Of a DNA stretch of 42,745 nt, positions 3,512 through 37,072 are shown piece by piece (positions within the stretch are counted from its first letter, which is position 1; every line of letters begins with the position of its first letter). The position numbers were made by a program, and so were the translations under genes. Source of the stretch: Balneolales bacterium (GTDB lineage Bacteria; Bacteroidota; Rhodothermia; Balneolales; HLUCCA01); assembly GCA_024711145.1 (NCBI GenBank), contig JANJTJ010000049.1:1-42745 (forward strand), written 5' to 3'. The notes beneath the pieces are model-generated. The model worked only from the letters and a program-made list of their open reading frames with translations, made no database searches and was not told the origin of the DNA.

Positions 3512-3521
3512 GGAATCGGGG

Positions 3522-4298
3522 CTACGGGTTCACGTTCGGATTTCGGGACAAGGCGATGGATGCGGCGACCGCCGCGTTCAGACTCTCGACGAGATGGGCG
3601 TTGCCCGGAATGCGCACATCGGTGGCCGGCAGGGCGCGTACCGCTTCCGACAGGCCGTTGCCTTCGTTTCCGAGCACCCAGATGGCATCGGCGGGGATGG
3701 TTATGTCGGATAGGGAGACGGAGACCGGGCCGGCATCGAGCCGGAACAGGGGCCGCCCGATGCGCCGGGCGGCCTCGGCCCATTCGGAAATGATGCCGGT
3801 GGCGTAGGGCAGGGCGCCGGTGGCGCCGGCCGTGCTGCGCACCGTTTTCGGATGGAAGAGGTCCACGGTGCCGGTGCCCAGGCCTATGCCCACGGCGCCG
3901 AACCAGGCGGCGCTGCGGTACACGGTGCCCAGGTTGCCGGGGTCTTGGAGCGCGTCGAGCCAGAGCAGTGGACCTGTGCGGCGGGCGAGCAGGTCGGCCA
4001 TGGGTGTGGCATCCGGAATGCGGCACACGGCGATGACCCCTTGGTCGGATTCGGTGGTGGAGAGGGAGCGGAAGTCGTCGGGCTCCACGGTGCGCATCTC
4101 GCAAGGCGGAAGCGGGGGAACGGGGCGGGATGCGTCCAGCACCACCGTTTCCACTTGGATCAACCCGTGGGTGAGCAGCTGCTCCACGGTCCGGAGCCCT
4201 TCGGCGAGGAACCGGCCGGACTCCTCCCGATGTTTGCGGAGGGCCAGTTTGCGGATTTCCGTTCGTTTGGGCCGGCTCAACGGCGGCGGTGCCTGCAT
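3522..4298 (-). CDS. TrmH/SpoU family RNA 2'-O-methyltransferase
   Basis: 'LDALQDPGNLGTVYRSAAWFG', 'WVLGNEGNGLSEAVRALPATDVRIPGNAHLVESLNAAVAASIAL'. Confidence 0.92.
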   Translation of the reverse strand: MQAPPPLSRPKRTEIRKLALRKHREESGRFLAEGLRTVEQLLTHGLIQVETVVLDASRPVPPLPPCEMRTVEPDDFRSLSTTESDQGVIAVCRIPDATPMADLLARRTGPLLWLDALQDPGNLGTVYRSAAWFGAVGIGLGTGTVDLFHPKTVRSTAGATGALPYATGIISEWAEAARRIGRPLFRLDAGPVSVSLSDITIPADAIWVLGNEGNGLSEAVRALPATDVRIPGNAHLVESLNAAVAASIALSRNPNVNP

Positions 4299-17855: not shown

Positions 17856-20606
17856 ATGACCATCAAGTCGTCTATCCTGTCTCTACTAGTCGTGTTCGCC
17901 ACCGGTCTCAGCGGTGTGCTCGCTCAGGGAGGTCTGCAAGGGACCGTTACCGATTCGGGCAACCGCGAAGTGCTTACCGGGGCCAACATCCTTGTCTCCA
18001 GTTCGGATGGGGCGGTTTCCCGAGGCACCAACTCCGGAATCGACGGCACCTATTCCTTCACCAGCCTGCGCGCCGGCACCTACACCGTGCGTGTGAGCTA
18101 CGTGGGCTACAACGACCGCACCATCAACGATGTCGTGATCCGCGACGGTGCCGTAACCCGGTTGGACATCGACCTCACGGCCGGTGTGAGTCTGAACCCG
18201 GTGGTCATTTCGGCTTCCAAAGCCCAGGAGAAAGTGACCGAAGCGCCCGCATCCATCCAGGTGGTATCGGCCCGCGACATCGCGAACGTCTCCACCACGG
18301 GTTCGGCCGACTACGTGAAAGGCCTCACCGCCGTGGACGTGGCCCAGCAGGGCATCGCCTCCCAAACGGTGGTCACCCGCGGCTTCAACAACATCTTCAG
18401 CGGCTCCCTGTTGGTGCTTACCGACAACCGCATCACCCACATCCCCTCGCTGCGCGCCAACGTGCTGCACTTCATCCCGCAGACGAACGACGACATCGAG
18501 AGCGTGGAACTGGTGCTGGGTCCGGCCGCCGCCCTGTACGGCCCCAACGCCAACAGCGGCGTGATGCACATGCTCACCAAGTCGCCCCTCACCTCGGCCG
18601 GTACCAGCATCGGCGTGTTCGGCGGCAACCAGAGCTTCTTCAAGGTACAGGCCCGTTCGGCCCACCGCCTCAGCGACCGGTTCGGTCTGAAGGTATCCGG
18701 CCAGTACGTGCGCGCCAGCGAGTTCGAGCTGGATCCTAACAACCCGTACCGCCAGCAGGAAACCCAGGCCCGTACGGCCTATCTGGGTGGCGGCGGCGAC
18801 CCGCTCTCTCCGTTCGGCCGCCGCATCGGTGTGCGCGACTACGACATCGAGAAGCTCTCGATCGACGCCCGTGCCGACTACCAGGTGAGCGACAACCTCA
18901 CGGCCATCTTCAACACCGGCTTCAACCGGGCCAACAACATCGACCTGACGGGTCTGGGTGCTGGCCAAGCCGTTGATTGGACCTACAGCTACTACCAGGG
19001 CCGCATCCTGTACCGCAACTGGTTCTTCCAGACCTTCCTGAACCAATCCAACTCGGGCGACACCTACATCATCCCAACTGGGAACGCCATCGTGGACAAA
19101 TCCAACCTGATGGTGTCGCAGCTGCAGCACCAGGCCGATTGGAGCCGGTTCAACTTCGTGTACGGGGTGGATTACATCCGCACCAATCCCCAGACCGAGG
19201 GTACGGTGAACGGGCAGTATGAGAACCAGGACACCTACCAGGAATTCGGCGGGTACCTGCAAACCAAGTACACCTTCAGCGAGAAGCTGGACCTGCTGGC
19301 CTCCTTCCGGTTGGACCAGCACAGCGAGCTGAACGACCCGGTGTTCTCGCCCCGTGCGGCCTTGGTCTTCAAGCCCATCCCGAACCACAACTTCCGGGTG
19401 ACCTACAACCGCTCCTTCAGCACGCCCAGCTCGAACAACCTGTTCCTGGACCTGCTGGCCCGTCAACAGGTGATTTTCCCCGGATATAATGGTACCGGGT
19501 TGTTGGATGTGCGTGCACAGGGTGTGCCGAAATCAGGATTCACCTTTGACCGCGGTATGAACGGTTTACCACTCTGGCAACTAAATTTACCCGCAGTAAT
19601 GCCAGGGCAACCTACATCCGATCTCGAATTCGATCCTTCCAATATCAATCCGGCCCACTGGGCAGTAATTCGGAACGTATTGGCTGGTGCCATCGCCGCA
19701 AATCCGAATCTGCCGGCTGATGTCAAGGCCTTGAATTGGGGGTCTGCCGCTCAACCAGGCACCAGTAGTCTTCCTTCCATTGGTCTACTTATGTTCAACC
19801 CGCTCACGGCTTCGGTTGTGAGTGATGTAACCGACATCGACGCCATCAAGCCGACGATCTACAACACCTTCGAAGTGGGTTACAAAGGCATCTTCAACAA
19901 CAACCTGCTGTTGAGCGCCGATGTGTACTACACCAAGGCCGAAAACTTCGTGGGTCCCTTGCTGGTTGAAACCCCGACTGTCAACATGAATCCCAACAAT
20001 GCCGGTTCATACTTGGGCGCATTCATGATTTCGAACGGAATAAATCCAGCGGTTGCGGCGGCTGTGGCAGCCCAACTTGCTCCTGTAGTGGCTCAAATTC
20101 CCTTGGGCGTGGTAACGCCCCAGGAGGCTTTCGACCGCCGCGCCGTGATGCTCACCTACCGCAACTTCGGTGAGATCACCTACTGGGGTGTTGACCTCGG
20201 CTTCGAGTACCTGATGGGTGCCCGCTACCGCCTCATGGGCAACATGAGTTATGTGAGCGAAGACCAATGGCTCGACCTGGACGGCAACCCCGATTTCGAC
20301 ATCAACCTGAACGCGCCGAAAACGAAGTTCATGTTGGGCATCGGGTACGACAACCGCGATGCCGGCTTCGACGCCGCCGCCAAATTCCGCTACGTGGGCG
20401 GGTTCCCGGTAGAATCGGGCATCTATGTGGGTGAAGTGGACGCCTACTACACCTTGGACGTGAACGCCGGGTACAACCTGCGTGCCGTTCCGGGGCTGCG
20501 GTTCTCGGCCAACATCAACAACCTGACCAACAACCAGGCGCCCCAGTTCGCCGGTACGCCCGACATCGGCCTGTTCGCCACGGGTGGGATCACCTACTCG
20601 TTCTGA
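17856..20606 (+). CDS. TonB-dependent receptor with carboxypeptidase-regulatory-like N-terminal domain
   Basis: 'GLQGTVTDSGNREVLTGANILVSSSDG...GIDGTYSFTSLRAGTYTVRVSYVGY', plug 'VTEAPASIQVVSARDIAN...VELVLGPAAALYGPNANSGVMHMLTKSP', C-term 'GIFATGGITYSF'-like barrel end. Confidence 0.93.
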   Translation: MTIKSSILSLLVVFATGLSGVLAQGGLQGTVTDSGNREVLTGANILVSSSDGAVSRGTNSGIDGTYSFTSLRAGTYTVRVSYVGYNDRTINDVVIRDGAVTRLDIDLTAGVSLNPVVISASKAQEKVTEAPASIQVVSARDIANVSTTGSADYVKGLTAVDVAQQGIASQTVVTRGFNNIFSGSLLVLTDNRITHIPSLRANVLHFIPQTNDDIESVELVLGPAAALYGPNANSGVMHMLTKSPLTSAGTSIGVFGGNQSFFKVQARSAHRLSDRFGLKVSGQYVRASEFELDPNNPYRQQETQARTAYLGGGGDPLSPFGRRIGVRDYDIEKLSIDARADYQVSDNLTAIFNTGFNRANNIDLTGLGAGQAVDWTYSYYQGRILYRNWFFQTFLNQSNSGDTYIIPTGNAIVDKSNLMVSQLQHQADWSRFNFVYGVDYIRTNPQTEGTVNGQYENQDTYQEFGGYLQTKYTFSEKLDLLASFRLDQHSELNDPVFSPRAALVFKPIPNHNFRVTYNRSFSTPSSNNLFLDLLARQQVIFPGYNGTGLLDVRAQGVPKSGFTFDRGMNGLPLWQLNLPAVMPGQPTSDLEFDPSNINPAHWAVIRNVLAGAIAANPNLPADVKALNWGSAAQPGTSSLPSIGLLMFNPLTASVVSDVTDIDAIKPTIYNTFEVGYKGIFNNNLLLSADVYYTKAENFVGPLLVETPTVNMNPNNAGSYLGAFMISNGINPAVAAAVAAQLAPVVAQIPLGVVTPQEAFDRRAVMLTYRNFGEITYWGVDLGFEYLMGARYRLMGNMSYVSEDQWLDLDGNPDFDINLNAPKTKFMLGIGYDNRDAGFDAAAKFRYVGGFPVESGIYVGEVDAYYTLDVNAGYNLRAVPGLRFSANINNLTNNQAPQFAGTPDIGLFATGGITYSF

Positions 20607-21920: not shown

Positions 21921-24644
21921 ATGCACCTCATCCTTCTTGTTGTCCTTTTCCTGCAGCTGCAGCCGCCGGACACCCTGAGCCTGGCCGATACCACGCGCTG
22001 GGGCAGCATCAACATGGCGAGAACCGAGGGATGGACGCTGCGCACCGCGGCCGATGCGGCTCCCGTGCCGGTGCGCATCAACGCCATGGACAGCATACGG
22101 GCGTTGCCGATCTGGAACGGTTACGGGCTTTTCGAAACCACCCTGATGGTGGACTCCGTGCTGAGCACCCGGCCCTGGATGTTGGGCTACTACTCGCCGG
22201 GCGGCGTGCGCATATGGGTCAACGAAACCCTGGTGTTGCAAACCGGAAAGCCGTCGCCGACGGCCGATGGCGAGGTATTGGGCCGGTTTCTGAACATTGT
22301 GGATCGGCCGGTGCGCCTGCTCGAAGGGCCGAACACCCTGCGCATCGAGTTGTCGGAGCATACCGTTCCGTTCCGATTCGTGAACGGATTGGGAAACGTG
22401 CGACCCGGCATGATCGACCTGTATCTGAAGAAACCGGGAACCGATGCGGTTCAACGCCGGCAACGGGCCTTCATCTTCGGCGGCACCATGTTGGTACTGC
22501 TCACGCTCATCCTGCTGCACGGCTTCCTATCGCTCCAATTCCGCAACGACTACCACCGCAACGTGATGCTCACCATCGGGTTCATCGCCTTGCACGCCTT
22601 CACCACCATGTCGGACAGCATCGTCGATTGGACGTTCGCCTACGCGCCGTTCTTCGAGATCTCGTACGCCACCACATTCATCTTCGTCATCTACTATTTC
22701 TCCCTATCGCTCCGGCATCTGTACCGGTTGCGTCCGCATCTCGCGCCCATGCGGGCGCTGCTCGGGGTGTCGGTGGCCATAGCCCTGTACGCGGCGTTCC
22801 ACTCCCGATATCCGCTCCACATCCTGCATCCCGTGTTGGCCTTGCTGACGGTCGGTTATGCCATTTGGACCATGCGGGAAGCCAAGCTGGCGTCGGCCGA
22901 CCACGAGATCGGCATTCTGCTGGTCGGATTTCTGATAACCATGGGCGGTGCCATCGGCTACTCCCTCGTGTACCTGGTATTGGGCATCGATAGCAACGCC
23001 GTACTCATCGTATCGGCCTTGAGCGCCTACGCCGGCCTACCGATCGCGCTCACCTTCAACATAGCCAAGAACTATTCGGGCCTGTTCAAGACCATGGAGC
23101 TGAAGGTGGTGGAGCGCACGGCCCAGTTGCAGCAGGCCAACGAATACAAGACCCGCTTCTTCGCCAACATCTCGCACGAATTCCGCACCCCGCTCACCAT
23201 CGCGCGGGGGTTGTTGGACCGGTTGGCCGGGCGCCGGCCCCACGATGCCGCCCTGTTGGCCGAGCTCTCGCCGGTGCAACGCAACCTGAGCCGCCTGGGC
23301 GACATGGTGAATCAGATCGTGGACCTGACCAAATCGGACCACGACCAGATGGCCCTCAACCGGAAAGTGTACCGGGTGGATTCGATCGTGACCTTGTCGG
23401 TGGAGTCGTTCCGGTCCTTGTCGGACCACCGCAACCAGACCCTGGTATTCGCCTCCGGAACGCCCGATGCGGCGGTGCATGCCGACCGCCTGAAGCTCGA
23501 GATCATGATCAACAACCTGGTTTCGAACGCCATCAAATACACCCCGGCGGGAGGCACCATCCGGGTGTCGACCAGCGCGGACGGGGGCCGATTCTACCTG
23601 CGTGTGGAGGATACCGGCCGCGGCATTCCGGCCGAAGAACGCGAAGCCGTCTTCCAACGCTTCCACCGCATCCGGCAGAACGATACCGAATATGTGGAAG
23701 GCATGGGCATCGGGTTGGAGCTCAGCCGCACCCTGGCCCGGTTGCATGGGGGCGAGATCCGCCTGCTCGCATCCGAAGCGGGTACCGGTTCCACATTCGA
23801 ACTGGAACTGCCCCTGTCGGATGCCGCCGGAGCCGAAGACATCCTGGAGGATTTCGACACCCATTTCCGTTCCCTGCCGCAGCCACCGGCGCCGGGGTCT
23901 GCCGAAAACCGCATCCTGCTGGTCGAAGACAACGACGACATGGCCGCCTACATCACCGATGTGTTGCAGGACGTGGGCACCGTGGAACGCGCCATCCACG
24001 GAGAGGATGCCCTGGCCAAACTGGCCGCAAGCCGGCCGGAACTCATCATCACCGACCTCATGATGCCCAGGATGGGCGGAAGCGCGTTGATCGCTGAACT
24101 GCGGAAACGGGACGAATGGCATGATGTGCCCGTGGTGGTGCTCACCGCCAAAGCCCTGGAGGCCGACAAACTCGACCTGCTGCGCATCGGGGTGGTCGAT
24201 TACATCACCAAGCCCTTCTCGGTGGATGAGTTGGTTTTCAAATCGCGCACCTTGTTGAACCTGGGCCGGAAGCGGAAGAAGGCGCGGATCATCCTGAGCA
24301 CCGAAGAAGCCTCGCTGGATCGGGAGCGGCTCACCCCGGAAGCCGCCGAATGGGTGAAGGCGAACATCAAAGACCAAAGCCTCTCGGTGGATGTGTTGGC
24401 CGACCACCTCAACATGAGCCGCCGCACCCTGTACCGCCTCATCGAAGCCGAAACGGGCATGTCGTCGGCCGAGTTCATCCGCGAGATCCGGTTGCAGACG
24501 GCCCGGCAGCTCCTGCACAACAGCACGTCGGCCACGTTGGAGCAGATCGCGGAAGCCGTAGGGTATGCCGGCGGGCGCACCTTCCGCAAACACTACCACG
24601 ATCGGTTCGGGCTGCACCCCCTGGATGAGCTCAAAAAGGCCTGA
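21921..24644 (+). CDS. Hybrid two-component sensor: periplasmic beta-sandwich-like domain + multi-TM (7TMR-DISM-like) + HisKA/HATPase + receiver + AraC-type HTH
   Basis: H-box 'FFANISHEFRTPLTIARGLLDRL'; 'VEDTGRGIPAEEREAVFQRFHRI'; receiver 'RILLVEDNDDMAAYITDVL...IITDLMMPRMGG...VLTAKA...YITKPF'; HTH 'SVDVLADHLNMSRRTLYRLIEAETGMSSAEFIREIRLQTARQLL'. Confidence 0.92.
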   Translation: MHLILLVVLFLQLQPPDTLSLADTTRWGSINMARTEGWTLRTAADAAPVPVRINAMDSIRALPIWNGYGLFETTLMVDSVLSTRPWMLGYYSPGGVRIWVNETLVLQTGKPSPTADGEVLGRFLNIVDRPVRLLEGPNTLRIELSEHTVPFRFVNGLGNVRPGMIDLYLKKPGTDAVQRRQRAFIFGGTMLVLLTLILLHGFLSLQFRNDYHRNVMLTIGFIALHAFTTMSDSIVDWTFAYAPFFEISYATTFIFVIYYFSLSLRHLYRLRPHLAPMRALLGVSVAIALYAAFHSRYPLHILHPVLALLTVGYAIWTMREAKLASADHEIGILLVGFLITMGGAIGYSLVYLVLGIDSNAVLIVSALSAYAGLPIALTFNIAKNYSGLFKTMELKVVERTAQLQQANEYKTRFFANISHEFRTPLTIARGLLDRLAGRRPHDAALLAELSPVQRNLSRLGDMVNQIVDLTKSDHDQMALNRKVYRVDSIVTLSVESFRSLSDHRNQTLVFASGTPDAAVHADRLKLEIMINNLVSNAIKYTPAGGTIRVSTSADGGRFYLRVEDTGRGIPAEEREAVFQRFHRIRQNDTEYVEGMGIGLELSRTLARLHGGEIRLLASEAGTGSTFELELPLSDAAGAEDILEDFDTHFRSLPQPPAPGSAENRILLVEDNDDMAAYITDVLQDVGTVERAIHGEDALAKLAASRPELIITDLMMPRMGGSALIAELRKRDEWHDVPVVVLTAKALEADKLDLLRIGVVDYITKPFSVDELVFKSRTLLNLGRKRKKARIILSTEEASLDRERLTPEAAEWVKANIKDQSLSVDVLADHLNMSRRTLYRLIEAETGMSSAEFIREIRLQTARQLLHNSTSATLEQIAEAVGYAGGRTFRKHYHDRFGLHPLDELKKA

Positions 24645-24732
24645 ATGGCACAACCGCGCATGCAAAATGGCATGATCGCGACGTAGCGGGCGGTGTAATC
24701 TCATGATGCCCATCATCCAGCCCGAGGCCATC

Positions 24733-27700
24733 ATGAGAACCGCACTGCTTACCGCCTTCCTGTCCATCGCCGCCACCGTATCGGCGCAACTGCCTGCCGA
24801 CGGCCTCCGCGTCCATCTCCGGGCCGATGCCGGCACCTCCACCACCGTCGAAAACGAAGGGATAACTTCGTGGACCGACCAATCCGGAAACGGATTCAAT
24901 GCCTCCGCACCTGGCGGGCAACCGGTCTATGTGTCGAATGCGATCAACGGTCAGCCGGCATTGTTCTTCAACGGCACCCAGTATCTCCACATCGCCAACA
25001 CGGGCACGCTCGGACTTGTGAACAGCGATTACGAGATGTTCTTCGTGGCGAAGAGCAGCCACAGCGGCATCCAGTTTCTGGGATCGGGCAGCTTGGGGCA
25101 CCACGAGGTGCATCTGAACGGTCTGGGCGCCCTGCGTTTCATTCCGAATGAGGAAGTCGGCATCAACCATGGCACGGATGGGGATTACACCGACGGCGAA
25201 CAGCGCATCTACAGCGTGCGGGCGACCACCACCCACGGCACCGCCCGGGTGAACGGCGTGGATGTGGGCACCACGGCGAACGCGCGGTCGGCATCGGATG
25301 CCCTGTTCAGCCTGGGCAACCGCAGTGTGGGCGGTTATCCCCTCGTCGGCCACATCGCCGAAGTGATCATCTACAACCGGGTATTGAGCAAGGTGGAACG
25401 GAACCAGGTGGAAGCCTATCTGGCCGAGAAATATGCGGTGACCGAGGTCTTCGCGGCCGCTCCCACCGTGGTGCTCGATTCGTACCAAACCAGCCATCAG
25501 CTCGGTGTGACATTCTCCGGATTGGTGAACCCGAACGGATCGGCCACCACCTACCGGTTCCTGTATGGTACCGACCCGGACAACCTGAACTTGAGCACCG
25601 AGCCGGTGTCTGTGGGTAGTGGGAACGCCTTCGTGGCGGCCTATGTCTCCGTGCCGGGCCTATCGCCGGCACAGACCTACCATGTGGTGTTGGAAGCCGA
25701 GAACGCCGCGCATGCGGTCCGATCTCCGACCGGGGAAGTCGCCATCACGGACCAACCCACGGGCACGCCCGTCGCGTCGATTCCCGCCTCGGGGCTTCGG
25801 GTACACCTCAAAGCCGATGCGGGCACCTCCACCACCGTGGAGAACGCGGTGGTGGACCAGTGGCTCGACGTGTCGGGCAACGGGTTGCGGGCGTTCCCCC
25901 CGGCCAGCCAGCCGGTCTACAGCCCGAACGCCATCAACGGCATGCCGGCCTTGCAATTCAGCGGGGTGCAAGCGCTCCATATCGCCAACACCAGCACGCT
26001 CGGCCTCACCGACAGCGACTATGAGATGTTCGTTGTGGCCAAAAGCGGCAACCCGGCCATCCAGTTCCTGGGATCGGGTGGCCTGGCTTACCACGAGCTG
26101 CACCTGAACGGTGCCGCCGGGCTCCGATTCATCCCCAAAAATCCGATGTTCGTGGACAACGGCGCCGACCAGGCGTTCACCGACGGCACGCCTCGGATTT
26201 TCGGCGTTCGGGCGTCCGCCACAACCGGTGTGGCCCGGGTGAACGGTGTGGACGCCGGGCAGTTCGGCGATGCCCGATCCGCCACCGACGCCATGTTCCG
26301 GCTGGGTATGCGGAACGACGGGACTTACCCCCTGTACGGCCACATCGCCGAAGTGCTCATCTACGACCGCACTCTGAGTGCCCCGGAACGCACCTTGGTG
26401 GAGCGCTATCTGGCCAGCAAGTATTCCATTTCGGGTGCGGCGCTCACCAGCCCCACGCTCGTGCTGAACACCCCCACCACGACGCAGGACCTCGGCGCCG
26501 TGGTCTCCGGCACCGTGAACCCCAACGGCGTGGCCACCACCTACCATTTTCTGTACGGTACCGATCCGGACAACATGACCCATGGCACCGAGACCGTCTC
26601 GGCCGGCGCCGGCACCGAACCGGTGGAGGTGGAGGCGGCCCTCGAGGGATTGGACCGCAACCAGGTCTATTACGTGAAGCTTGTGGCCGAAACCGCCTCC
26701 CAGATTGTGGAAACGGCAGCCCAGCGTTTCGATACCTCCTACCTCGAGGTGCTCGGCTTCGGCACCGATGTGGCGGTCGACAGCGAAAACCCGCAAGCAA
26801 CCCGCCTCACCGCCACGGTCCGGCTCGGGCTCCCCGCCGGTAGTGGCTCGGAGTACAAGATCCGATATGGCGCTTTCGAAACCGACTTCATCCCCATTAA
26901 CGCCACCGGCACGCTCGACGAGACCGTGTGGTTGCCGAACGACGACCTGGTATTCGGCCAGACGTATGACCTCGTGCTGATCGGGAAAGGTCCGACCGGG
27001 AAACTGACCTACAGCGATACGTTGTCGGTGGTGTATTACGGGATTCCATCTGCGGTTCTATCCTCGGCAGTGCCGTCTCCTGACGGAAGCGTCGTTGTGA
27101 CCGGAAGTGCGAATCCGAACGGATTTGCGACATCCTACTCCATCCTCTATGGAACGGATCTCGAAAGCCTGACAGCCACCGATGCGGTGGCATTGGGGAA
27201 CGGGACCTCGGCCGTCGCCATCAACCGCACCCTCGAATCGCTGACTCCCGGGCAGACGTACCACATCGTGTTGAGCGTTTTCAACAACGACGAAGTGGTC
27301 AGCCAGTCGGACACGCTCACGTTCAGCACCCGATGGCCCGGCGCCGACCTCACCCTGGCGGATGCGGACCCGCAGACCGGCGCCACCTTCGGCGGAGCGG
27401 TCTATCCGAACGGCTTCGATGCCGAGTACCGGTTCCGGTACGGCACCACCACGGAATTGGGCTCCGCTACCGAATGGTCCGCCGCCGGTTCGGGTACCGA
27501 AGCCGTCGAGGCCTTGGCGAGCGGAATCGCCATCGACAACAACGCCATCTATCAGGTAATCATGGAGGCGCGGATTGGGGCCAACCTCATCCGAACCGAC
27601 ACGCTCTCGTTCGATACCTATTTCGTAGAGAACCCGCAGGTGGAGCTGGGCCTGGCCTATGCGGACGGAGCCGAGCACATCCGGGTGAGCGGCAGTTTCG

Positions 27701-30700
27701 ACGCGGCCGGTTCTTCGGAAGCCACCTATCGCATCCTGTTCGGAACCGATGCGGAAGCCCTGGCGGCAGACCAGACCGGATTCGCCCCGGGAAACTTCAA
27801 CAACCCCGACCAGACGACGGGTTTTGAACGCTACCTGAATCCGGGCGAGGCGTTGAGCCCCGGTACCACCTATTTCGTGCGGGTGGAAGCCCGGAGCGCC
27901 ACCGGCAGAACCGCTTTCAGCGAAATCGGAAGCATCCTGTTCGCCGGTTTGCCGACCGCCACCTTGGATAGCATAACCACATTCCAAAATTTCAGCGCAC
28001 GGTTCCACGGCAGCATCCAAGCGAACAGCGGAACGGTGACCTCGGTAGTCCAGTACGGCACCGACCGGAACAACCTGGACCTCACCGGTCCGGATTCGCT
28101 CCTCACCAACCTGACCCCCGGCCTCATCTATTACGCCGCCTTGGCGGTCACGAATGCCAGCTATCCGACCCAACGTAGCGACACCCTCGCGATCGACATG
28201 CGGTATGCGACCATCTCGTTCTTCAATCCGGATGTGGTTACGCCTACCAGCGTTACCGCTTATTACGGCACCAATGCGCATGGGTCCCCGAAAAGCGGAT
28301 ATATCCGCTTTGGAACCGATGAAACCGACCTGAGCCAGACCGTCGCCGATCCGAACCAGATCACGGGTTCCACGATGGGTACCCGCACGCTCGACATCAG
28401 CGGCCTGACACCTGATGCCAGGTACTTCGGGCAATGGGTGGTCGAAGATCTGAACGGCGGACCCACCACCTATTCGGATGTCGTCGAATTCAACACCACA
28501 TTTCCGGAAGTGACGCTCGATTCGGTGCGCATGGGCGACAACCTGGTGCTGAACGCCTACGCCACCGTCAACACGAAAAACCAGAACGTCACCATTCGTG
28601 GTCAATACGCCGCCCAAGGCGACACCGATTTCGACACGCAGGACAGCAGATACTCCGTGACAGCCAGCGCCAGCACCTCTCCGGTCAATGTCGTCGTTCC
28701 GATGACGAATCTCAACGAAGACGAGACGTTCTCAATCCGGCTTCAGGCCACCAATCCATCGAACAAGAGCGGTTATTCCGACACGCTGAATGTCGACACC
28801 TACTTCGTCGATTACTACCAACCCACCGTCTCCTATTCCGGTGCGGATGTGGCAATCCGTGTCGAACTCGAAGCACAACCCGACCTCGAGTACGCTTACC
28901 GGATTCTGCGGGGAACCCGTGCCGATTCGCTTACCGCGATGAGCGACTTCGTGACCTTGACCACTTCCGAGCGCTACACCGACATCGAGGCCATCTTGGA
29001 AGCGGAAGCGTTCACTCACGGTACCACCTACCACTTCGCCATACAGGGGCGTGGCGCATCCGGCTGGCTCACGCAGAGCGACACCCTCAGCCTGTTCTTC
29101 CAATCGCCTCCGTTCGCCCGAACGCCGGTGGTGCAGCTCCTGCCGGACCTGAGCGCCACCGTATCCACAACGGTATTCCCGAACGGCCGCAGCCTCGACC
29201 ATCAGTTCCTCCTGGGCACCCCGCCCGACAGCTTGGTGGCCATCGGTACGCCGATGCGCATCAGCGGCTTCGATTCCGTGGTGGTAACCCGTGCCTTGGA
29301 AGACCTGGACCGGTTCGCCGACTACCACTTGACCCAACGGTTCACGGTTGTGGGGTCGGCCGACACCACCCGATCCGACACCGTGGCGTTCGACACGAAC
29401 TACCCCGGCGTTACCATCTACGACTATACCACCTATGTCGAGGTGGACTCCATCGGCGAACCGATTTACGGTTCCATCATCGGATACATCGAACCCGGCG
29501 GACTCGAAACCACCGCATGGGTAACCTACCGCGAAGAAAACGGAACCTTGGTGCAGACCACAGTGCCCGTGCAGGTGGAAACCCTGGAGGACCAGATCAC
29601 CGAGGTACCAATCCGTTTCGGTCCGTTGGACCCGAACACCGCCTACCGTGCCCGGCTGGTGGTTAGCAATGGCGAACGCACCAACGCAAGCGACAGCCTC
29701 TGGTTCGACACCACCTTCCCGCGCATCAACCGGGAAGCAGTCCAGCCCCAGGAGGACGGATCGGCATTCATAACCGCCAAGATCACCCGGGAAGGCAGCA
29801 CCGGCTATTACGGCTTGCTGTACGGAACCCACCCCGATTCCCTGATCAACCAGTACGAATGGCGCAACTACGGATCGTCGGATGCGGAGGAATTCACCAC
29901 CAATTTCAGTTTGTCCGGGTTGGATGAATCCAAGACCCATTTCGCCCGCCTGGTGATCATCCGCGGGTACGACCAACGCACCTACCGTTCGGCGGTCTTC
30001 AACTGGAACTATGCGAAACCGGTCGTGCTCAGCAGCCAGGTGACCCAATTCCAGGATCTGACCGCCCGGGTGGATGCCATGATCGACACCAAGGGCAAGG
30101 ATGTGCAGTTCTGGGTGGAATGGTCGAACAACCAAGTCGGGTCCGAATCGACGGATTTCGTACTCGTAGCGGGTAGCGACGAGCCCGTGGCCGTGCAGGT
30201 GACCCTGCCGGCGGTGCCCCGATACAGCGGCACCGTGTTGGCTTTGGCGGCTCAGGCCAACGGGTTGTCGCCGACCTACGCCGACACCACCACCATCCTC
30301 TTCGACTTCCCCGAACTCCTGGCGTTCGCGCAAACGCCGGCGATACTATGGTCGGACAACTCCCTGATGATCGACCTGGCCATGACGAACCCGTCGCGAT
30401 CCACCGATGTGGTGGCCCGATTCGGGTACCACCCGCATCCCGACAGCCTGGTGCATGTCTCGGAAACCATGACCTTCATGACGGAAGGCATCAACCAATT
30501 CAACTTGCCCATGGGTCCCGTGGTGCGCAATGACACGGTTTACTATCAATTCGAGTTGAATCACAACGGGTATGTCACCCGATCCGCGATCGGTTCGGTC
30601 TTTACCCGATCCCAGATCATCACCCTGGGCGAAGTGGACGTGACCTCTACCGGAGGCGGCACCTTCCGGGCCGTGGTGAACAGTGTGGTTGACCCGAACG

Positions 30701-33700
30701 GCCTTCCCACCACCATACAGGGGTTGATCTCCTCCACGCCGGACCTGGCGAATCTGGCCAATTTCGGCGATACGCAGTTGACCGAGCCTTCCGAACAAGC
30801 CTACAGCGTCAGCTTCGACGGGCTCACCATCGGCCAGACCTACTATGCCGTGTTCTCCGCTTATGACCACGTCAACTTCAACACATTCATCTTTTCCGAC
30901 ACGCTGGCCATCGCCTTCACCGCCGCTCCGCTGGCCGTGGAACTGGCCCTGCGGCCCGATTCCAGCCTGCAAGCCGTACTCACAGGCGTCGTGATTCCGG
31001 CCGGCCGCGACCTCACCTACCGCATCGCTTACGGCACCCAGCCGGGCACCCTGGACCAGACCACCGCTTCGGTTGCCGTATCGGGAGACAGCGCCACCGT
31101 GGCCATCACCGAAACCCTTGCCGGGCTCGACCGCTTCAGCACCGTATATGCCTCCGTGGTCCTGGAAAGCGAGGGCTACGACCCCATCCGGTCCGACACG
31201 GTATCCACCACCCTGGCCTACCCCGCCTTCACGTTCGGCACTCCCAGCCGCACCGCCGAAGGCGACCTGCAGGTTCCCATCATCGTGGACAACGGCGGAT
31301 TCGACACCTATGTGAAGCTGTGGTACGGCATCGGATCCGCAGACCCGGCCTCCGCAACCGATTCCATCGAAGTGGCCGGCTCGGAAGTACCGGTAACCAT
31401 CAACCGGCTGATACCCACCCCCGGCATCCACGTCGATGTGCGGTTCCTGGCCGAAGCCCGAACCGACGGATTGGTGAGCCGGAGCGACACCATGAGCTTC
31501 ACCACGCCGGGCCCCGACTTCACCTTCGTCCGCGCCTTCACCACCCCCGATCAGAAAGGCTTTTTTGAAGCGGTGGTGAACCCCAACGGCATACCCACGC
31601 AAATCCGGTTCGATTACGGAACCGGAGGATCGTTGACCCAGGCAACGGCCGTGATCGATGTCGGCAGCGGTACCGAGCCGGTAACCATCACGAACAACAT
31701 GGTGGACCTGGACTACCAGGCCACCTACATGGCGCGCATGTCGGTCTTCGGGGCCGGGTTCGATGTGGCATCCGACACCATCCACTTCAACACCATCCTG
31801 CCGGGTGCCGCCATCACCAATCTGACGGCCGACGCCAACGGCCAGGGCAGCGTAACGGTGGAACTCTTCAACCGCGGGTTGAATACCTATCTGCGCTTGG
31901 CGTACGGGCTGGTGGGGCAAGGCTATACCGACACCACAGCGGCCGTTTACGCCGCCTTCGTTTCCGATCCCCAGATCGTCCATCTGAATGTGTCCGGTCT
32001 GGCTCCGGTAACCGAATACGAAGTGAAGGTGTTGGTACAAGACGCGGCCGATCCGAACAAAGTGACCGTCTCGTCGGCGGTACCCTTGGTCACCCCGGCC
32101 GGAATACCCCTGGTGGAATTGCATGGCATCGTAGTCGATCCGCTAGACGAATCGATCACCGCCATCGGGCGGGTCAATCCCATGGGCCAGGCGATCGTCG
32201 TACGTGCCAACTATGTCAATCCGGATCTCGGCAACTTCCAAATCAACTACAATTACGGGCAAGAACTCACCGGTACCGAGTGGATCGACATCGAGCTCCC
32301 ACTGGTCACATCGATCGAAAAAAGACTGCCGGGCGGCGAAGGATCCACCGTGCAGGAAGACCATGAAGGCGTCTTCCCAACCGTCACCCTCATCGCACAA
32401 TACTTTGATTTCCCGGCAGGCTCGGATGCGCAGGTCAGCAGCGAAACCATACCCGCCAGCACGTCCGGCACCACCTATTTCGTAACCTCCCTGGCCGACA
32501 CGGACCACGGCGTAGGCCAGCACGGCACCCTGCGCTATGCGATGACACGATTGAATGAGACCGTGGTGGAAGGGCCCCGCAAACTCCGGCCGGGAGACGC
32601 CGCACGCACCGCGGACGGCCCCAAAACGAACGTGATCCATATCGTAGTGGAAGGCAGCCTGATGTTGACGGCTCCCCTGCCCACCGTCACGTCGAGTATG
32701 GCGTTGCTTGGTCCTGGCCGCGACCTCTTCACCATCGATGCGGGCGATCAGTTCCGTCCGTTCACCGTGGGTACCGATTCCATCTTCCGCTCGAACAGCG
32801 AGCCATACTTGTCTTTCGAGTTGAGTGATATGACCGTGAGCAACGGGTTCGCCCGCGGAACGGATGGTGTGGATGGAGGCGGAGGCGGCGCCGGCATGGG
32901 TGGCGCCCTGTTCGCCCACTACGGTTCTGTAACGGCATACAACGTGCTGTTCCACAGCAACTCGGCCACCGGCGGACTCGGCAGCGAGTTGGTAGGTATG
33001 GGCGGCCGTGGTGGCGACGCACCCGGTGTGGGCTTGGGTGGCACCGGTAACGGCGGTTTCGGCGGCGGTGGCGGTGCCCCCGGAGGTGCCGGTGCCTTCG
33101 GCGGTGGTGCGGGGGCCGGCTCACCTGTAGCGCCAAGCGGATTCGGCAACTATAACGTCGCAACCAGCACCCGCGGCGCCGACGGCTACAGTTTCGGTGG
33201 CGCCCTCTTCCAGCGTTCCGGTTACCTGACCCTCATCCAGATCGAGTTCGTCGGAAACCAGGTCCAAAACAACCGCTTCGGGCAGGGCGTCTTCATCATG
33301 AATACGCAGATCGACTTCAACGATGTCGTATTCGACGATGGGTATTATGATCCGGACCCGGAATTCGGAAGCAACCAATTCTACACCCACTTCGATGTTT
33401 CGCCTGCGCAGGCGCCGGTGTCGGCTGTAGCACACTACCTCACGACGACCACCGCGCGCATCGATGTGGAACGAGGCTCCGGTACCCACCGGTTGATCCT
33501 GGCCTCCACAATTGGTAACGAAGAAAGTGGTGGCGGCATCAGTGCGCATTGGTTCGAAGGCCTGCGGTTCCGGGCATCTACCGACATCACCGATCCCACC
33601 ACCGAAATCCAGAACGGCTACCGTGTGGTCTATGCCGACACCGGCGCATCGGTCACAGTTACCGGACTCGAGCCGGGCACCAGCTACGAGTTTATGGTGT

Positions 33701-36700
33701 TCGAATACTACGACACCCAGCAGGGCGATCTGTATGTCGCCTACAACCGGAACTACCTGGCCATCAATCACACCCATGTCCAGGGAGTGCCGGCGTTCAC
33801 GGATGTGGCCGGCAACGCCCTCCGCTTCTCCGGAGACGATGCCATAACCCTGGGCAACGCCACCGACGACTTCTACCTGGCCGACCACCTCACCCTTTCG
33901 ATGTGGGTGAACCCTTCGGCAATAGACCAACCCGCCACCTTGCTGCGCAACGGGCAGCGGTTCGCCCTTGGCACCACCCCGGCCGGCGCCGTGTATTTCG
34001 TGGCCGACAACGGCACCGTGCGCGACTCCGTGGCCACCTCGGCCGGTCTCATCCAAGCCGGAACCTGGCACCATATCGGTCTGGTCTCCGACTCGCTCCG
34101 CCACCGCATCTACGTGGATGGCATGGTGCGGGCAGATGTGTCGAGTGCCGGGGACACCCTGGTCTTCGGTGGAACCGCCGACCTGATAGCCGGGGAAGGC
34201 TATCGGGGCGACCTCGACGAACTCGCCATCTATCGTGCCGGTGGTACGCCGCTGTGGTCCATCCTCCATACGATGAACCGGATCGTGAGCGCACCCACAG
34301 CCGGTATGGTCGCCGCCTTCCAATTCAACGAATCTGCGACAGACACCACCATCAACAGTGTGAATAGCTCGTCGATCCACCTGGGAAGTAGCAGTCGGTT
34401 CGTTCCGGCCGGATATCGGATGTACCCCGGACTGACCTTCGCCTACGACGTGACCGACGTACTCATCGCCGGTACCAACCTGAAACTGCAGCGGGTGGTG
34501 GAGGAAGGAGACCCCGAGCCGATCGATGCCGTGTTGCTGGGGCAATACATGACCCCCGTGGCCAACGCACCCGATACCCTGGCCTTGGTCACCAACGACC
34601 GCATCTTCGTGTTGCAGCTGTTCGACACCACCGAAGACCTCCTCGCGCTGCATTTCAGCCTGCCGGGCGGATTCGTCACCGGGTCGGTCGCCATGTCGCA
34701 ATTCAAATTGTACCACCGACCGTTGCGCAGCGATGCCGGATGGACCCGAGTAGCCGATGCCGCCTCGTTCCAGCAAGGCAACGACATCGTGTTCGAACTC
34801 GATTCCACATCGAATGGCGAATACATTGTGGCGCGAGACATCCAGGTGGCATACCAACAGACCGCGGGCAATGCCCACCGCTTCGATGGGAACACCGCCT
34901 ACATCTGGTTCGCCAACAACACGTGGTTGAACAGCCTCACCAGCCACACCATCCAGATGTGGTTCAAGACCGACGATGCCACCCGGGCCGTGCAGTTCCT
35001 CACCTCCAAAGGCAACGAGTTCATGGAGTTGCACCTTTCCGGAGCCAACCGCTCGCTGCGGTTCATCCCCCGAGCCGGTGCCTTCTATGACACGCAGGCC
35101 AACTCGATCCGGTCGGGTGAATGGACCCACGTAAGCGCCACCTTCGATGTGGCCGGTGCCAGGGTCAGCGTGTACCTGAACGGGGTGGAAGTTCCGCTGA
35201 CCGCCTCCGGTTACACTTCCGGGAATCCGTACACCGGCACCTACACCACAAGCGAATCGCTCAACATCGGGATTCGCACCGATGGCGGGTATCCGTTCGT
35301 CGGCACCATCGACGAACTGCGGGTTTGGAATGGTAGTCGTACCCCGTTGCAGATCTGGGACGACATGCACGGCACCCTGCCGCCCACCTTCCAACCCGCT
35401 CTCGTGCTGTATGCGCAATTCAACGAGAGCACGGGGAATCTCGTGAGCGATGCCGCGCTCGGTACCCAGGGCTACCGGACGAGCTTCTTCGACAACGGCA
35501 ACTGGGTGGCCTCCACCATTCCGATCAACCAGCAAGCGGAATACTCGGCGCAGTTGACCGGCCAGGCCGGTTGGAGGCTTCTGGCAAGTCCGGTACCGAC
35601 CACGGTCGGCGACCTGCTCGACGGGATATGGACCCAGGGTTTCGAAGGCACCGCCAACCCCGACGCCAACCCGCACGTGTTCACCTGGAACACGGCCAAC
35701 GGATCGAACAGCGCGGCGAACTGGGTACCGGTAAGCAGCAGTTCGCAACCCCTGCAGCCGGGTGAGGGCGTCTTCGCCTATGTGTACGCCACCGATCCCG
35801 ACGGCCAGGGCAGTTTCCCCAAAACACTGGCGGTAACGGGCCAAGGCCTCCTCCAGGACGCGCCCCTTACCACGCGTCTCAACCCGAACACCGACGGATG
35901 GGCGCTCGTGGGCAACCCGTATGCCACCGACATCCTCTGGGGCGACCTCACCCGGAATGGCGTGTATGATGTGCCTTACCTGTGGGACGCCAACGCCGAC
36001 GAGTGGGTCACCTGGAACGGTAGCACAGGCAGCCTTACCGACGGCCGCATCGGGGCATTCAATGCCTTCTTCGTAGCCACCATGGGCGAAAGCCCCAGCC
36101 TTGCCGCACCCTTCTCGGCGCGGCGTGCCGGCGCGACGCAATTCGTGGGCAAAGTGGTGCAGACCCAGGCCGCCGCCACCTTCGCGCTGAAGGTCGAGAG
36201 CCCCGACGGTCGCTCCAACCGCGCCTGGTTCTCCTTCGATGCCGAAGGAAAACTCGGGTTGGACGCGCACGACGCCTTCAAGCTGGCTCCCTACTCGGCG
36301 CAGTATGTGCAGTTGGCTTCGGTCATCCAAGACAGCATCCGCTTGGACATCAACCACTTGCCCCTGCTTACCGAAGAGCTTGCGGTACCGCTGCGCATCC
36401 GATCGACCGCCAGCGGCACCTACCGCCTCGTACTGCATGCGAACGCCTTGCCGCAGGGCTGGGACTACGCCGTGCTCGACACCGAAACCGGTGCGGTCAC
36501 CCGCCTGGAAGAGCCGCTCGAATTCGCCTGGACCGGCGCCGGCGCCGAGCTCACGCGGTTCGTGCTGAAGCTCTCGCCGATCACCATCACCCAGGTAGAA
36601 CCGCCCGCCGATGGGCCGCTCGTGTTCGGGTTGGACCAGAACTATCCCAACCCCTTCAATCCGTCGACTACCATCGCCTACCGGTTGGCGGCCGCCGGCA

Positions 36701-36882
36701 ACACCCGGCTCACGGTCTATGACCTGCTGGGGCGCGAGGTGGCGGTACTGGTGGATGGGGCCATGCCGGCCGGTCGCCATACGGTGAGCTTCGACGGAGC
36801 CCGCTTCGCCTCCGGCGTGTACCTGTACCGGCTCGAATCGGGCGGGCGCGTGCTCACCCGCAAATTCACCTTACTCAAATAG
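24733..36882 (+). CDS. Giant (~4,049 aa) secreted multidomain T9SS substrate: LamG-like domains, ~21 FN3-like modules, Gly-rich beta-helix-like segment, C-terminal type A sorting domain
   Basis: Signal peptide 'MRTALLTAFLSIAATVSAQ'; C-term 'FGLDQNYPNPFNPSTTIAYRLAAAGNTRLTVYDLLGREVAVLVDGAMPAGRHTVSFDGARFASGVYLYRLESGGRVLTRKFTLLK'; one uninterrupted ORF; in-frame ATG 24703 is less likely. Confidence 0.93.
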   Translation: MRTALLTAFLSIAATVSAQLPADGLRVHLRADAGTSTTVENEGITSWTDQSGNGFNASAPGGQPVYVSNAINGQPALFFNGTQYLHIANTGTLGLVNSDYEMFFVAKSSHSGIQFLGSGSLGHHEVHLNGLGALRFIPNEEVGINHGTDGDYTDGEQRIYSVRATTTHGTARVNGVDVGTTANARSASDALFSLGNRSVGGYPLVGHIAEVIIYNRVLSKVERNQVEAYLAEKYAVTEVFAAAPTVVLDSYQTSHQLGVTFSGLVNPNGSATTYRFLYGTDPDNLNLSTEPVSVGSGNAFVAAYVSVPGLSPAQTYHVVLEAENAAHAVRSPTGEVAITDQPTGTPVASIPASGLRVHLKADAGTSTTVENAVVDQWLDVSGNGLRAFPPASQPVYSPNAINGMPALQFSGVQALHIANTSTLGLTDSDYEMFVVAKSGNPAIQFLGSGGLAYHELHLNGAAGLRFIPKNPMFVDNGADQAFTDGTPRIFGVRASATTGVARVNGVDAGQFGDARSATDAMFRLGMRNDGTYPLYGHIAEVLIYDRTLSAPERTLVERYLASKYSISGAALTSPTLVLNTPTTTQDLGAVVSGTVNPNGVATTYHFLYGTDPDNMTHGTETVSAGAGTEPVEVEAALEGLDRNQVYYVKLVAETASQIVETAAQRFDTSYLEVLGFGTDVAVDSENPQATRLTATVRLGLPAGSGSEYKIRYGAFETDFIPINATGTLDETVWLPNDDLVFGQTYDLVLIGKGPTGKLTYSDTLSVVYYGIPSAVLSSAVPSPDGSVVVTGSANPNGFATSYSILYGTDLESLTATDAVALGNGTSAVAINRTLESLTPGQTYHIVLSVFNNDEVVSQSDTLTFSTRWPGADLTLADADPQTGATFGGAVYPNGFDAEYRFRYGTTTELGSATEWSAAGSGTEAVEALASGIAIDNNAIYQVIMEARIGANLIRTDTLSFDTYFVENPQVELGLAYADGAEHIRVSGSFDAAGSSEATYRILFGTDAEALAADQTGFAPGNFNNPDQTTGFERYLNPGEALSPGTTYFVRVEARSATGRTAFSEIGSILFAGLPTATLDSITTFQNFSARFHGSIQANSGTVTSVVQYGTDRNNLDLTGPDSLLTNLTPGLIYYAALAVTNASYPTQRSDTLAIDMRYATISFFNPDVVTPTSVTAYYGTNAHGSPKSGYIRFGTDETDLSQTVADPNQITGSTMGTRTLDISGLTPDARYFGQWVVEDLNGGPTTYSDVVEFNTTFPEVTLDSVRMGDNLVLNAYATVNTKNQNVTIRGQYAAQGDTDFDTQDSRYSVTASASTSPVNVVVPMTNLNEDETFSIRLQATNPSNKSGYSDTLNVDTYFVDYYQPTVSYSGADVAIRVELEAQPDLEYAYRILRGTRADSLTAMSDFVTLTTSERYTDIEAILEAEAFTHGTTYHFAIQGRGASGWLTQSDTLSLFFQSPPFARTPVVQLLPDLSATVSTTVFPNGRSLDHQFLLGTPPDSLVAIGTPMRISGFDSVVVTRALEDLDRFADYHLTQRFTVVGSADTTRSDTVAFDTNYPGVTIYDYTTYVEVDSIGEPIYGSIIGYIEPGGLETTAWVTYREENGTLVQTTVPVQVETLEDQITEVPIRFGPLDPNTAYRARLVVSNGERTNASDSLWFDTTFPRINREAVQPQEDGSAFITAKITREGSTGYYGLLYGTHPDSLINQYEWRNYGSSDAEEFTTNFSLSGLDESKTHFARLVIIRGYDQRTYRSAVFNWNYAKPVVLSSQVTQFQDLTARVDAMIDTKGKDVQFWVEWSNNQVGSESTDFVLVAGSDEPVAVQVTLPAVPRYSGTVLALAAQANGLSPTYADTTTILFDFPELLAFAQTPAILWSDNSLMIDLAMTNPSRSTDVVARFGYHPHPDSLVHVSETMTFMTEGINQFNLPMGPVVRNDTVYYQFELNHNGYVTRSAIGSVFTRSQIITLGEVDVTSTGGGTFRAVVNSVVDPNGLPTTIQGLISSTPDLANLANFGDTQLTEPSEQAYSVSFDGLTIGQTYYAVFSAYDHVNFNTFIFSDTLAIAFTAAPLAVELALRPDSSLQAVLTGVVIPAGRDLTYRIAYGTQPGTLDQTTASVAVSGDSATVAITETLAGLDRFSTVYASVVLESEGYDPIRSDTVSTTLAYPAFTFGTPSRTAEGDLQVPIIVDNGGFDTYVKLWYGIGSADPASATDSIEVAGSEVPVTINRLIPTPGIHVDVRFLAEARTDGLVSRSDTMSFTTPGPDFTFVRAFTTPDQKGFFEAVVNPNGIPTQIRFDYGTGGSLTQATAVIDVGSGTEPVTITNNMVDLDYQATYMARMSVFGAGFDVASDTIHFNTILPGAAITNLTADANGQGSVTVELFNRGLNTYLRLAYGLVGQGYTDTTAAVYAAFVSDPQIVHLNVSGLAPVTEYEVKVLVQDAADPNKVTVSSAVPLVTPAGIPLVELHGIVVDPLDESITAIGRVNPMGQAIVVRANYVNPDLGNFQINYNYGQELTGTEWIDIELPLVTSIEKRLPGGEGSTVQEDHEGVFPTVTLIAQYFDFPAGSDAQVSSETIPASTSGTTYFVTSLADTDHGVGQHGTLRYAMTRLNETVVEGPRKLRPGDAARTADGPKTNVIHIVVEGSLMLTAPLPTVTSSMALLGPGRDLFTIDAGDQFRPFTVGTDSIFRSNSEPYLSFELSDMTVSNGFARGTDGVDGGGGGAGMGGALFAHYGSVTAYNVLFHSNSATGGLGSELVGMGGRGGDAPGVGLGGTGNGGFGGGGGAPGGAGAFGGGAGAGSPVAPSGFGNYNVATSTRGADGYSFGGALFQRSGYLTLIQIEFVGNQVQNNRFGQGVFIMNTQIDFNDVVFDDGYYDPDPEFGSNQFYTHFDVSPAQAPVSAVAHYLTTTTARIDVERGSGTHRLILASTIGNEESGGGISAHWFEGLRFRASTDITDPTTEIQNGYRVVYADTGASVTVTGLEPGTSYEFMVFEYYDTQQGDLYVAYNRNYLAINHTHVQGVPAFTDVAGNALRFSGDDAITLGNATDDFYLADHLTLSMWVNPSAIDQPATLLRNGQRFALGTTPAGAVYFVADNGTVRDSVATSAGLIQAGTWHHIGLVSDSLRHRIYVDGMVRADVSSAGDTLVFGGTADLIAGEGYRGDLDELAIYRAGGTPLWSILHTMNRIVSAPTAGMVAAFQFNESATDTTINSVNSSSIHLGSSSRFVPAGYRMYPGLTFAYDVTDVLIAGTNLKLQRVVEEGDPEPIDAVLLGQYMTPVANAPDTLALVTNDRIFVLQLFDTTEDLLALHFSLPGGFVTGSVAMSQFKLYHRPLRSDAGWTRVADAASFQQGNDIVFELDSTSNGEYIVARDIQVAYQQTAGNAHRFDGNTAYIWFANNTWLNSLTSHTIQMWFKTDDATRAVQFLTSKGNEFMELHLSGANRSLRFIPRAGAFYDTQANSIRSGEWTHVSATFDVAGARVSVYLNGVEVPLTASGYTSGNPYTGTYTTSESLNIGIRTDGGYPFVGTIDELRVWNGSRTPLQIWDDMHGTLPPTFQPALVLYAQFNESTGNLVSDAALGTQGYRTSFFDNGNWVASTIPINQQAEYSAQLTGQAGWRLLASPVPTTVGDLLDGIWTQGFEGTANPDANPHVFTWNTANGSNSAANWVPVSSSSQPLQPGEGVFAYVYATDPDGQGSFPKTLAVTGQGLLQDAPLTTRLNPNTDGWALVGNPYATDILWGDLTRNGVYDVPYLWDANADEWVTWNGSTGSLTDGRIGAFNAFFVATMGESPSLAAPFSARRAGATQFVGKVVQTQAAATFALKVESPDGRSNRAWFSFDAEGKLGLDAHDAFKLAPYSAQYVQLASVIQDSIRLDINHLPLLTEELAVPLRIRSTASGTYRLVLHANALPQGWDYAVLDTETGAVTRLEEPLEFAWTGAGAELTRFVLKLSPITITQVEPPADGPLVFGLDQNYPNPFNPSTTIAYRLAAAGNTRLTVYDLLGREVAVLVDGAMPAGRHTVSFDGARFASGVYLYRLESGGRVLTRKFTLLK
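24786..25440 (+). repeat. LamG-like domain copy 1 within the giant protein
   Basis: 'LPADGLRVHLRADAGTSTTVENEG...GGYPLVGHIAEVIIYNRVLSKVERNQVEAYLAEKYAV'. Confidence 0.75.
25785..26431 (+). repeat. LamG-like domain copy 2 within the giant protein
   Basis: 'IPASGLRVHLKADAGTSTTVENAV...GTYPLYGHIAEVLIYDRTLSAPERTLVERYLASKYSI', clearly homologous to copy 1. Confidence 0.75.
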
Positions 36883-36892
36883 GGACCCCGCC

Positions 36893-37072
36893 ATGAAATA
36901 CCTAGTGATGATCCTGTTGGTGCTCGGCACGGCAACCGTTCTGGTGGCCCAAGCCCCGCCACCGCCCACCCTGCTACCACCGCCGGCCCAGGCTCCCATC
37001 GACGGGGGCTTGGGGTTGTTGGCGGCGGCCGGGGCCGGTTATGCCTGGCGCCGACTCAAAAAGCGCACATAG
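36893..37072 (+). CDS. 59-aa small secreted/anchored protein with PID-CTERM-like C-terminus (absent from the ORF track)
   Basis: MKYLVMILLVLGTATVLVAQAPPPPTLLPPPAQAPIDGGLGLLAAAGAGYAWRRLKKRT*; ATG 36893-36895, TAG 37070-37072; signal peptide, Pro-rich linker, PIDGG, TM, basic tail. Confidence 0.82.
   Translation: MKYLVMILLVLGTATVLVAQAPPPPTLLPPPAQAPIDGGLGLLAAAGAGYAWRRLKKRT

Follow-up and report, generated by a model that had tools for sequence, protein, structure and literature searches.

A giant T9SS cargo gene between a regulator and a mini-protein gene

The analysis of a 42,745-nucleotide stretch of Balneolales DNA (hereafter the window) reveals a giant gene for a T9SS type A cargo, preceded by the gene of an HTCS-type regulator and followed by that of a PID-CTERM mini-protein, which starts 10 bp past its stop. 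On balance, and with moderate confidence, we favor the reading that the giant protein is a regulated, non-enzymatic surface adhesin or matrix fibre, exported by T9SS and encoded in a cassette with its regulator and a mini-protein processed by the exosortase XrtX. The gene structure, the domains, the T9SS core genes, XrtX, the conserved neighborhood and the co-occurrence are direct findings of the analysis; the surface location, the ligand, the regulation, the exosortase cleavage and the role of the mini-protein are inferred. The features of the locus are as follows.

21921..24644, + strand: hybrid sensor histidine kinase/response regulator/AraC regulator (HTCS type), directly upstream of the giant gene
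24733..36882, + strand: giant T9SS type A cargo gene, 4049 aa, open end to end
24733..24786, + strand: Sec signal peptide MRTALLTAFLSIAATVSA, by-eye reading of the sequence
24790..25440, + strand: LamG/ConA-like domain 1, residues 20-236 (PF13385, 31.3 bits alone)
25459..25749, + strand: FN3-like module 1, residues 243-339 (iterative HMM)
25780..26430, + strand: LamG/ConA-like domain 2, residues 350-566 (PF13385 stretch; 62% identity to domain 1)
26449..32097, + strand: FN3-like modules 2-20, residues 573-2455 (iterative HMM; PDB profile matches)
32101..32472, + strand: degenerate FN3-like segment, residues 2457-2580 (marginal HMM match)
32473..33402, + strand: Gly-rich conserved domain, residues 2581-2890 (35-39% identity to relatives)
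33415..33762, + strand: FN3-like domain 3' of the Gly-rich part, residues 2895-3010 (fn3, 22.4 bits, under the cut-off of 25)
33790..34332, + strand: LamG/ConA-like domain 3, residues 3020-3200 (PF13385 stretch; Laminin_G_2 at 3073-3164)
34405..34872, + strand: unnamed segment from LamG 3 to LamG 4, residues 3225-3380 (inside a continuous alignment to relatives, 2888-4049)
34879..35412, + strand: LamG/ConA-like domain 4, residues 3383-3560 (top PF13385 stretch, 3385-3541)
35530..36612, + strand: C-module, ~350 aa, residues 3600-3960 (GWRLLASPV...WTQG...; alignment to relatives)
36643..36867, + strand: T9SS type A sorting domain (TIGR04183, profile match above cut-off)
36893..37072, + strand: PID-CTERM mini-protein, 59 aa (NF046080, 41.6 bits, cut-off 26)

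The initial annotation had described a single 12-kb ORF of ~4,050 aa, and this description holds: the frame is open throughout, a run of 4049 stop-free codons has a chance probability of ~1e-49 at the same composition, and the codon-position GC of 0.59/0.48/0.79 follows the pattern typical of true coding DNA. An in-frame alternative ATG lies at 24703, 30 bases 5' of the ATG at 24733. The latter appears to be the better start because it places a clean signal peptide (MRTALLTAFLSIAATVSAQ) at the N-terminus and has GAGG just 5' of it; read by eye, this N-terminus looks like a typical Sec signal peptide. The encoded protein has a mass of ~430 kDa and a pI of 4.5, with 0 cysteine and 0.9% lysine.

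Domain architecture of the giant protein

The two N-terminal and two later LamG-like domains that had been proposed were recovered as four stretches of Laminin_G_3 (PF13385), which together reach 163.8 bits on the giant protein against the Pfam cut-off of 27.6. The identity between domains 1 and 2 points to a recent duplication, and domain 4 has the arabinanase 5hon as its PDB relative. The segment between domains 3 and 4 had no match in the Pfam search.

The proposal of about 21 FN3-like modules was likewise borne out, with 20 modules located by the iterative HMM (every E < 1e-18), together with the degenerate segment and the one domain beyond the Gly-rich part. The shuffled-sequence control for this HMM gave a single match at E 0.28, and the module profile matches FN3 chains in the PDB, namely those of titin, RPTP-delta, integrin beta-4 and Dscam. 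The degenerate segment was without a match in the Pfam search. Pairwise identity between modules averages ~20%, for which reason the array appears to be old; a recent FN3 expansion was considered and ruled out by this mean identity and by the little decay of identity with distance between modules.

Between the FN3 modules and the second LamG pair, the initial annotation had noted a Gly-rich segment; it is present, yet it is more than a mere segment, being a conserved domain of ~300 aa that is common to relatives. Profile searches of Pfam and the PDB gave no Pfam match and no credible PDB match for this domain. Its Gly-rich, short-rung sequence suggests that it possibly folds as a right-handed parallel beta-helix.

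The segment between LamG domains 3 and 4, the C-module and both flanking genes were absent from the earlier reading. Many cargos across the order carry the C-module ahead of their sorting domain, and its alignment, sorting domain included, comprises 24 sequences with 22 invariant columns. Its predicted structure is all-beta (pLDDT 85.9). Sequence searches found no family for it in Pfam and no relative in the PDB, and in the fold search with the C-module model it was the sorting domain, through its Ig-like matches, that occupied the rows. Each of the 59 genomes searched, that of the window among them, encodes relatives of the C-terminal region, with the proviso that in the weakest of the 59 the match may be to the sorting domain alone; the top named relatives of this part belong to Balneolaceae (Rhodohalobacter and others). 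The C-module is a widespread surface-protein domain that lacks a Pfam family and merits a model of its own.

The suggestion that the architecture may be undescribed stands for the exact order and falls for the parts. Across the 59 genomes, no other protein showed the exact domain order with 18 consecutive FN3 modules, and within this sample the window protein alone has the 18-module FN3 stalk; the nearest architectures, however, encoded in two genomes of related families (G052, 3207 aa; G004, 3232 aa), share both ends and the domain types. The matching N- and C-terminal parts are ~26-43% identical to the window protein, and the middle is shuffled. Common to all three proteins are an N-terminal LamG, the Gly-rich domain, a LamG pair, the C-module and the sorting domain, and their genes are alike in having an HTCS gene before and a PID-CTERM gene after. 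In the G052 and G004 proteins there are five or more LamG domains but few FN3 modules, whereas the window protein combines four LamG domains with the long FN3 stalk. A still larger protein was observed in G052 (G052:C10:332000-347800), where a T9SS ORF, 4978 aa or longer and still open where the retrieved region ends, exceeds the window protein in length and has a C-module and a PID-CTERM partner.

Export and sorting

The C-terminus had been read as a T9SS type A sorting domain, and two models agree above their cut-offs (TIGR04183, 38.8 bits, cut-off 23; Por_Secre_tail PF18962, 28.7 bits, cut-off 27). The C-terminus of the predicted structure aligns with latent PorU (6za2, Z 8.8) amid many Ig-like rows. 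The initial annotation had named a genome lacking T9SS machinery as grounds for refuting its reading, and this is not the case here: profile searches recovered both SprA (1514 bits) and PorU (1009 bits) as complete proteins; the 2.3-Mb genome also has 58 sorting-domain matches, 56 of them above the model cut-off. The sorting domain, SprA, PorU and these 56 domains make export of the giant protein to the cell surface, by Sec and then T9SS, a well-supported prediction, and anchoring there by the PorU sortase via the type A domain is probable. The window protein resembles other T9SS type A cargos (TIGR04183/PF18962) in its probable signal peptide, in its C-terminal type A domain and in being encoded alongside SprA and PorU in one genome, and differs from most of them in being very large, in carrying the unnamed C-module and in being paired with PID-CTERM.

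The PID-CTERM partner and the exosortase

The mini-protein is laid out as a signal peptide, a Pro-rich stretch, an APIDGG motif, a hydrophobic helix and a basic tail. A T9SS type A cargo gene lies directly upstream on the same strand in 49 of the 54 sampled PID-CTERM genes, 45 of them with a C-module, and the five exceptions include a second PID-CTERM copy in tandem. These counts derive from ~50 gene maps whose loci were drawn from the PID-CTERM match list, mostly before the adjacency was known, and whose detection models (sorting domain, C-module) were built on this order, such that distant families may be undercounted; the adjacency is seen in distant families too. Within the window genome, eight of nine PID-CTERM genes sit behind a cargo gene (chance ~0.9% each, ~3e-16 overall). 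The majority of T9SS cargos in this genome have no PID-CTERM neighbor, which argues that the mini-protein is not a general T9SS need. No description of the T9SS cargo/PID-CTERM pairing was found, nor was the name PID-CTERM found in the literature searched.

Variations on this arrangement were observed at several loci. On G000:C24, in the window genome, a contig-cut cargo is followed by four tandem T9SS C-module cargo genes with three PID-CTERM genes interspersed, and on G027:C1 a single T9SS cargo of 3082 aa is followed by a tandem pair of PID-CTERM genes. In some related families (f3), C-module cargos occur with PID-CTERM nearly absent; some f3 genomes (g11) retain an exosortase, and another substrate class may exist there.

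Both members of the PID-CTERM/XrtX system are present above cut-off in the window genome, the mini-protein and an XrtX at G000:C135:593-1099 (NF046081, 193.8 bits, cut-off 170). A search with PF09721 had returned no exosortase for this genome, a false negative given that NF046081 detects XrtX, and identity as XrtF was ruled out, with TIGR04128 below and XrtX above cut-off. Among 198 genomes of the phylum, an XrtF/XrtX-type exosortase occurs in 38 of the 38 with PID-CTERM vs 27 of the 160 without (p 2e-23, a value too small because genomes share ancestry, as are the p-values for adjacency). By the XrtX-specific model, 29 of the 30 genomes above cut-off have PID-CTERM. The PID-CTERM gene lies directly 5' of the exosortase gene in three genomes (G099, G121 and G156), the last with the order C-module cargo, PID-CTERM, exosortase. 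The NCBIfam models for PID-CTERM, XrtX and an XrtX-associated protein have consecutive accessions (NF046080, NF046081 and NF046082), so the link between PID-CTERM and XrtX was probably recognized previously by NCBIfam curators; no paper on XrtX in the exosortase sense was found among those listed.

The upstream regulator

The regulator at 21921-24644 combines HisKA, HATPase_c, Response_reg and HTH_18 in one protein, and an HTCS-type regulator also adjoins the genes of relatives. Of 11 LamG-headed cargos, 10 have such a regulator next to them, vs 4 of 34 other C-module cargos (p 3e-6, likewise too small given shared ancestry). It is probable that the upstream regulator switches on the giant gene upon an outside cue. 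In the window genome, no more than three of the long matches to its kinase-to-AraC part extend as far as the AraC end: the window's own, one on C39 that points away from a C-module/PID-CTERM pair (divergent orientation), and a third, on a short contig, with a truncated secreted ORF behind it. On G000:C31, the kinase-to-AraC part of a regulator is 47% identical to that of the window's; there the regulator is followed by a signal-peptide ORF, RCC1-like by eye, that is ended by the contig edge.

Proposed function and alternative explanations

In the mechanism that we propose, Sec would carry the giant protein first and T9SS next, and PorU would anchor it through the type A domain. The two recently duplicated LamG domains could form a binding head, presented by a flexible long stalk of 18 consecutive FN3 modules and the degenerate one, with the Gly-rich domain, two further LamG domains and the C-module lying beyond the stalk, the last beside the anchor. 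The giant protein would bind glycans or other surfaces without enzymatic activity. The kinase/AraC regulator would sense an outside cue and turn the giant gene on, and the PID-CTERM mini-protein, made at the same time and processed by XrtX at the inner membrane, may aid cargo maturation, retention or matrix assembly. An adhesin, matrix or glycan-binding role, as the initial annotation had put forward, fits the domain anatomy. Searches with Pfam and TIGR profiles found no catalytic family in all 4049 aa; LamG domains occur in secreted enzymes too, which counts against a non-enzymatic reading.

HTCS regulators typically control polysaccharide utilization loci, and the cassette could instead belong to a polysaccharide-use system, in which the giant protein captures polysaccharide for separate enzymes under HTCS control, in a PUL-like manner. 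The TonB-dependent receptor gene at 17856-20606 is in keeping with such a role, as are the LamG-type domains carried by glycosidases such as the arabinanase 5hon. The receptor, however, reaches 15.8 bits against the SusC/RagA signature cut-off of 46.2 and forms no SusC/SusD pair, an unrelated OMP decarboxylase gene separates it from the regulator, the window genes that were scanned include neither a glycoside hydrolase nor SusD, and housekeeping genes flank the cassettes of relatives, all of which makes a polysaccharide-use system unlikely. Far less probable still is an SprB-like adhesin for gliding motility, moving along the cell surface: the protein is T9SS-secreted, giant and repetitive, and the genome has SprA, but the sorting domain is of type A and not of type B (CHU_C), and the SprB locus is not known to have HTCS or PID-CTERM neighbors, which also speaks against this identity.

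A further alternative concerns the mini-protein, whose pairing with cargos could be an operon habit, in which case the mini-protein would have its own exopolysaccharide or membrane role and contribute nothing to the cargo. PEP-CTERM/exosortase systems have been linked to exopolysaccharide genes (PMC7468200), and 5 of the 54 sampled PID-CTERM genes lack a T9SS cargo directly upstream; adjacency in the other 49, distant families included, is nevertheless difficult to account for unless the two genes are selected to be expressed or to function together, and we regard a mere operon habit as rather doubtful. Beyond the favored reading of a regulated surface fibre, we tentatively put forward, as a possibility somewhat short of an even chance, that two sorting systems cooperate, with C-module cargos needing the adjacently encoded, exosortase-processed PID-CTERM protein for secretion, anchoring or matrix assembly.

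Exosortases matter for biofilm in Bacteroidota, and their link to T9SS is open (PMC10936215). Flavobacterium johnsoniae has an exosortase of the same superfamily, which is XrtF where that of the window genome is XrtX, and it uses T9SS for surface attachment; deletions of xrtF, sprA, porV and porU each abolish zorbs and strongly cut biofilm and surface colonization, and according to the authors the substrates of the exosortase are still to be identified (PMC10936215). If the two systems do cooperate, the XrtX/XrtF exosortases of Bacteroidota would gain defined substrates, and there would be an explanation for the surface-colonization defect that F. johnsoniae shows both when its exosortase and when its T9SS is mutated. 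The T9SS/PID-CTERM pairing is a candidate explanation of these phenotypes and no proof; together with the exosortase co-occurrence, it supplies specific candidate substrates and a partnership that experiments can address. An ORF at the window edge, 5-1336 (+), combines a part resembling the Lamin Tail Domain with a tail similar to FlgD_ig/CHU_C, and its product is possibly exported too.
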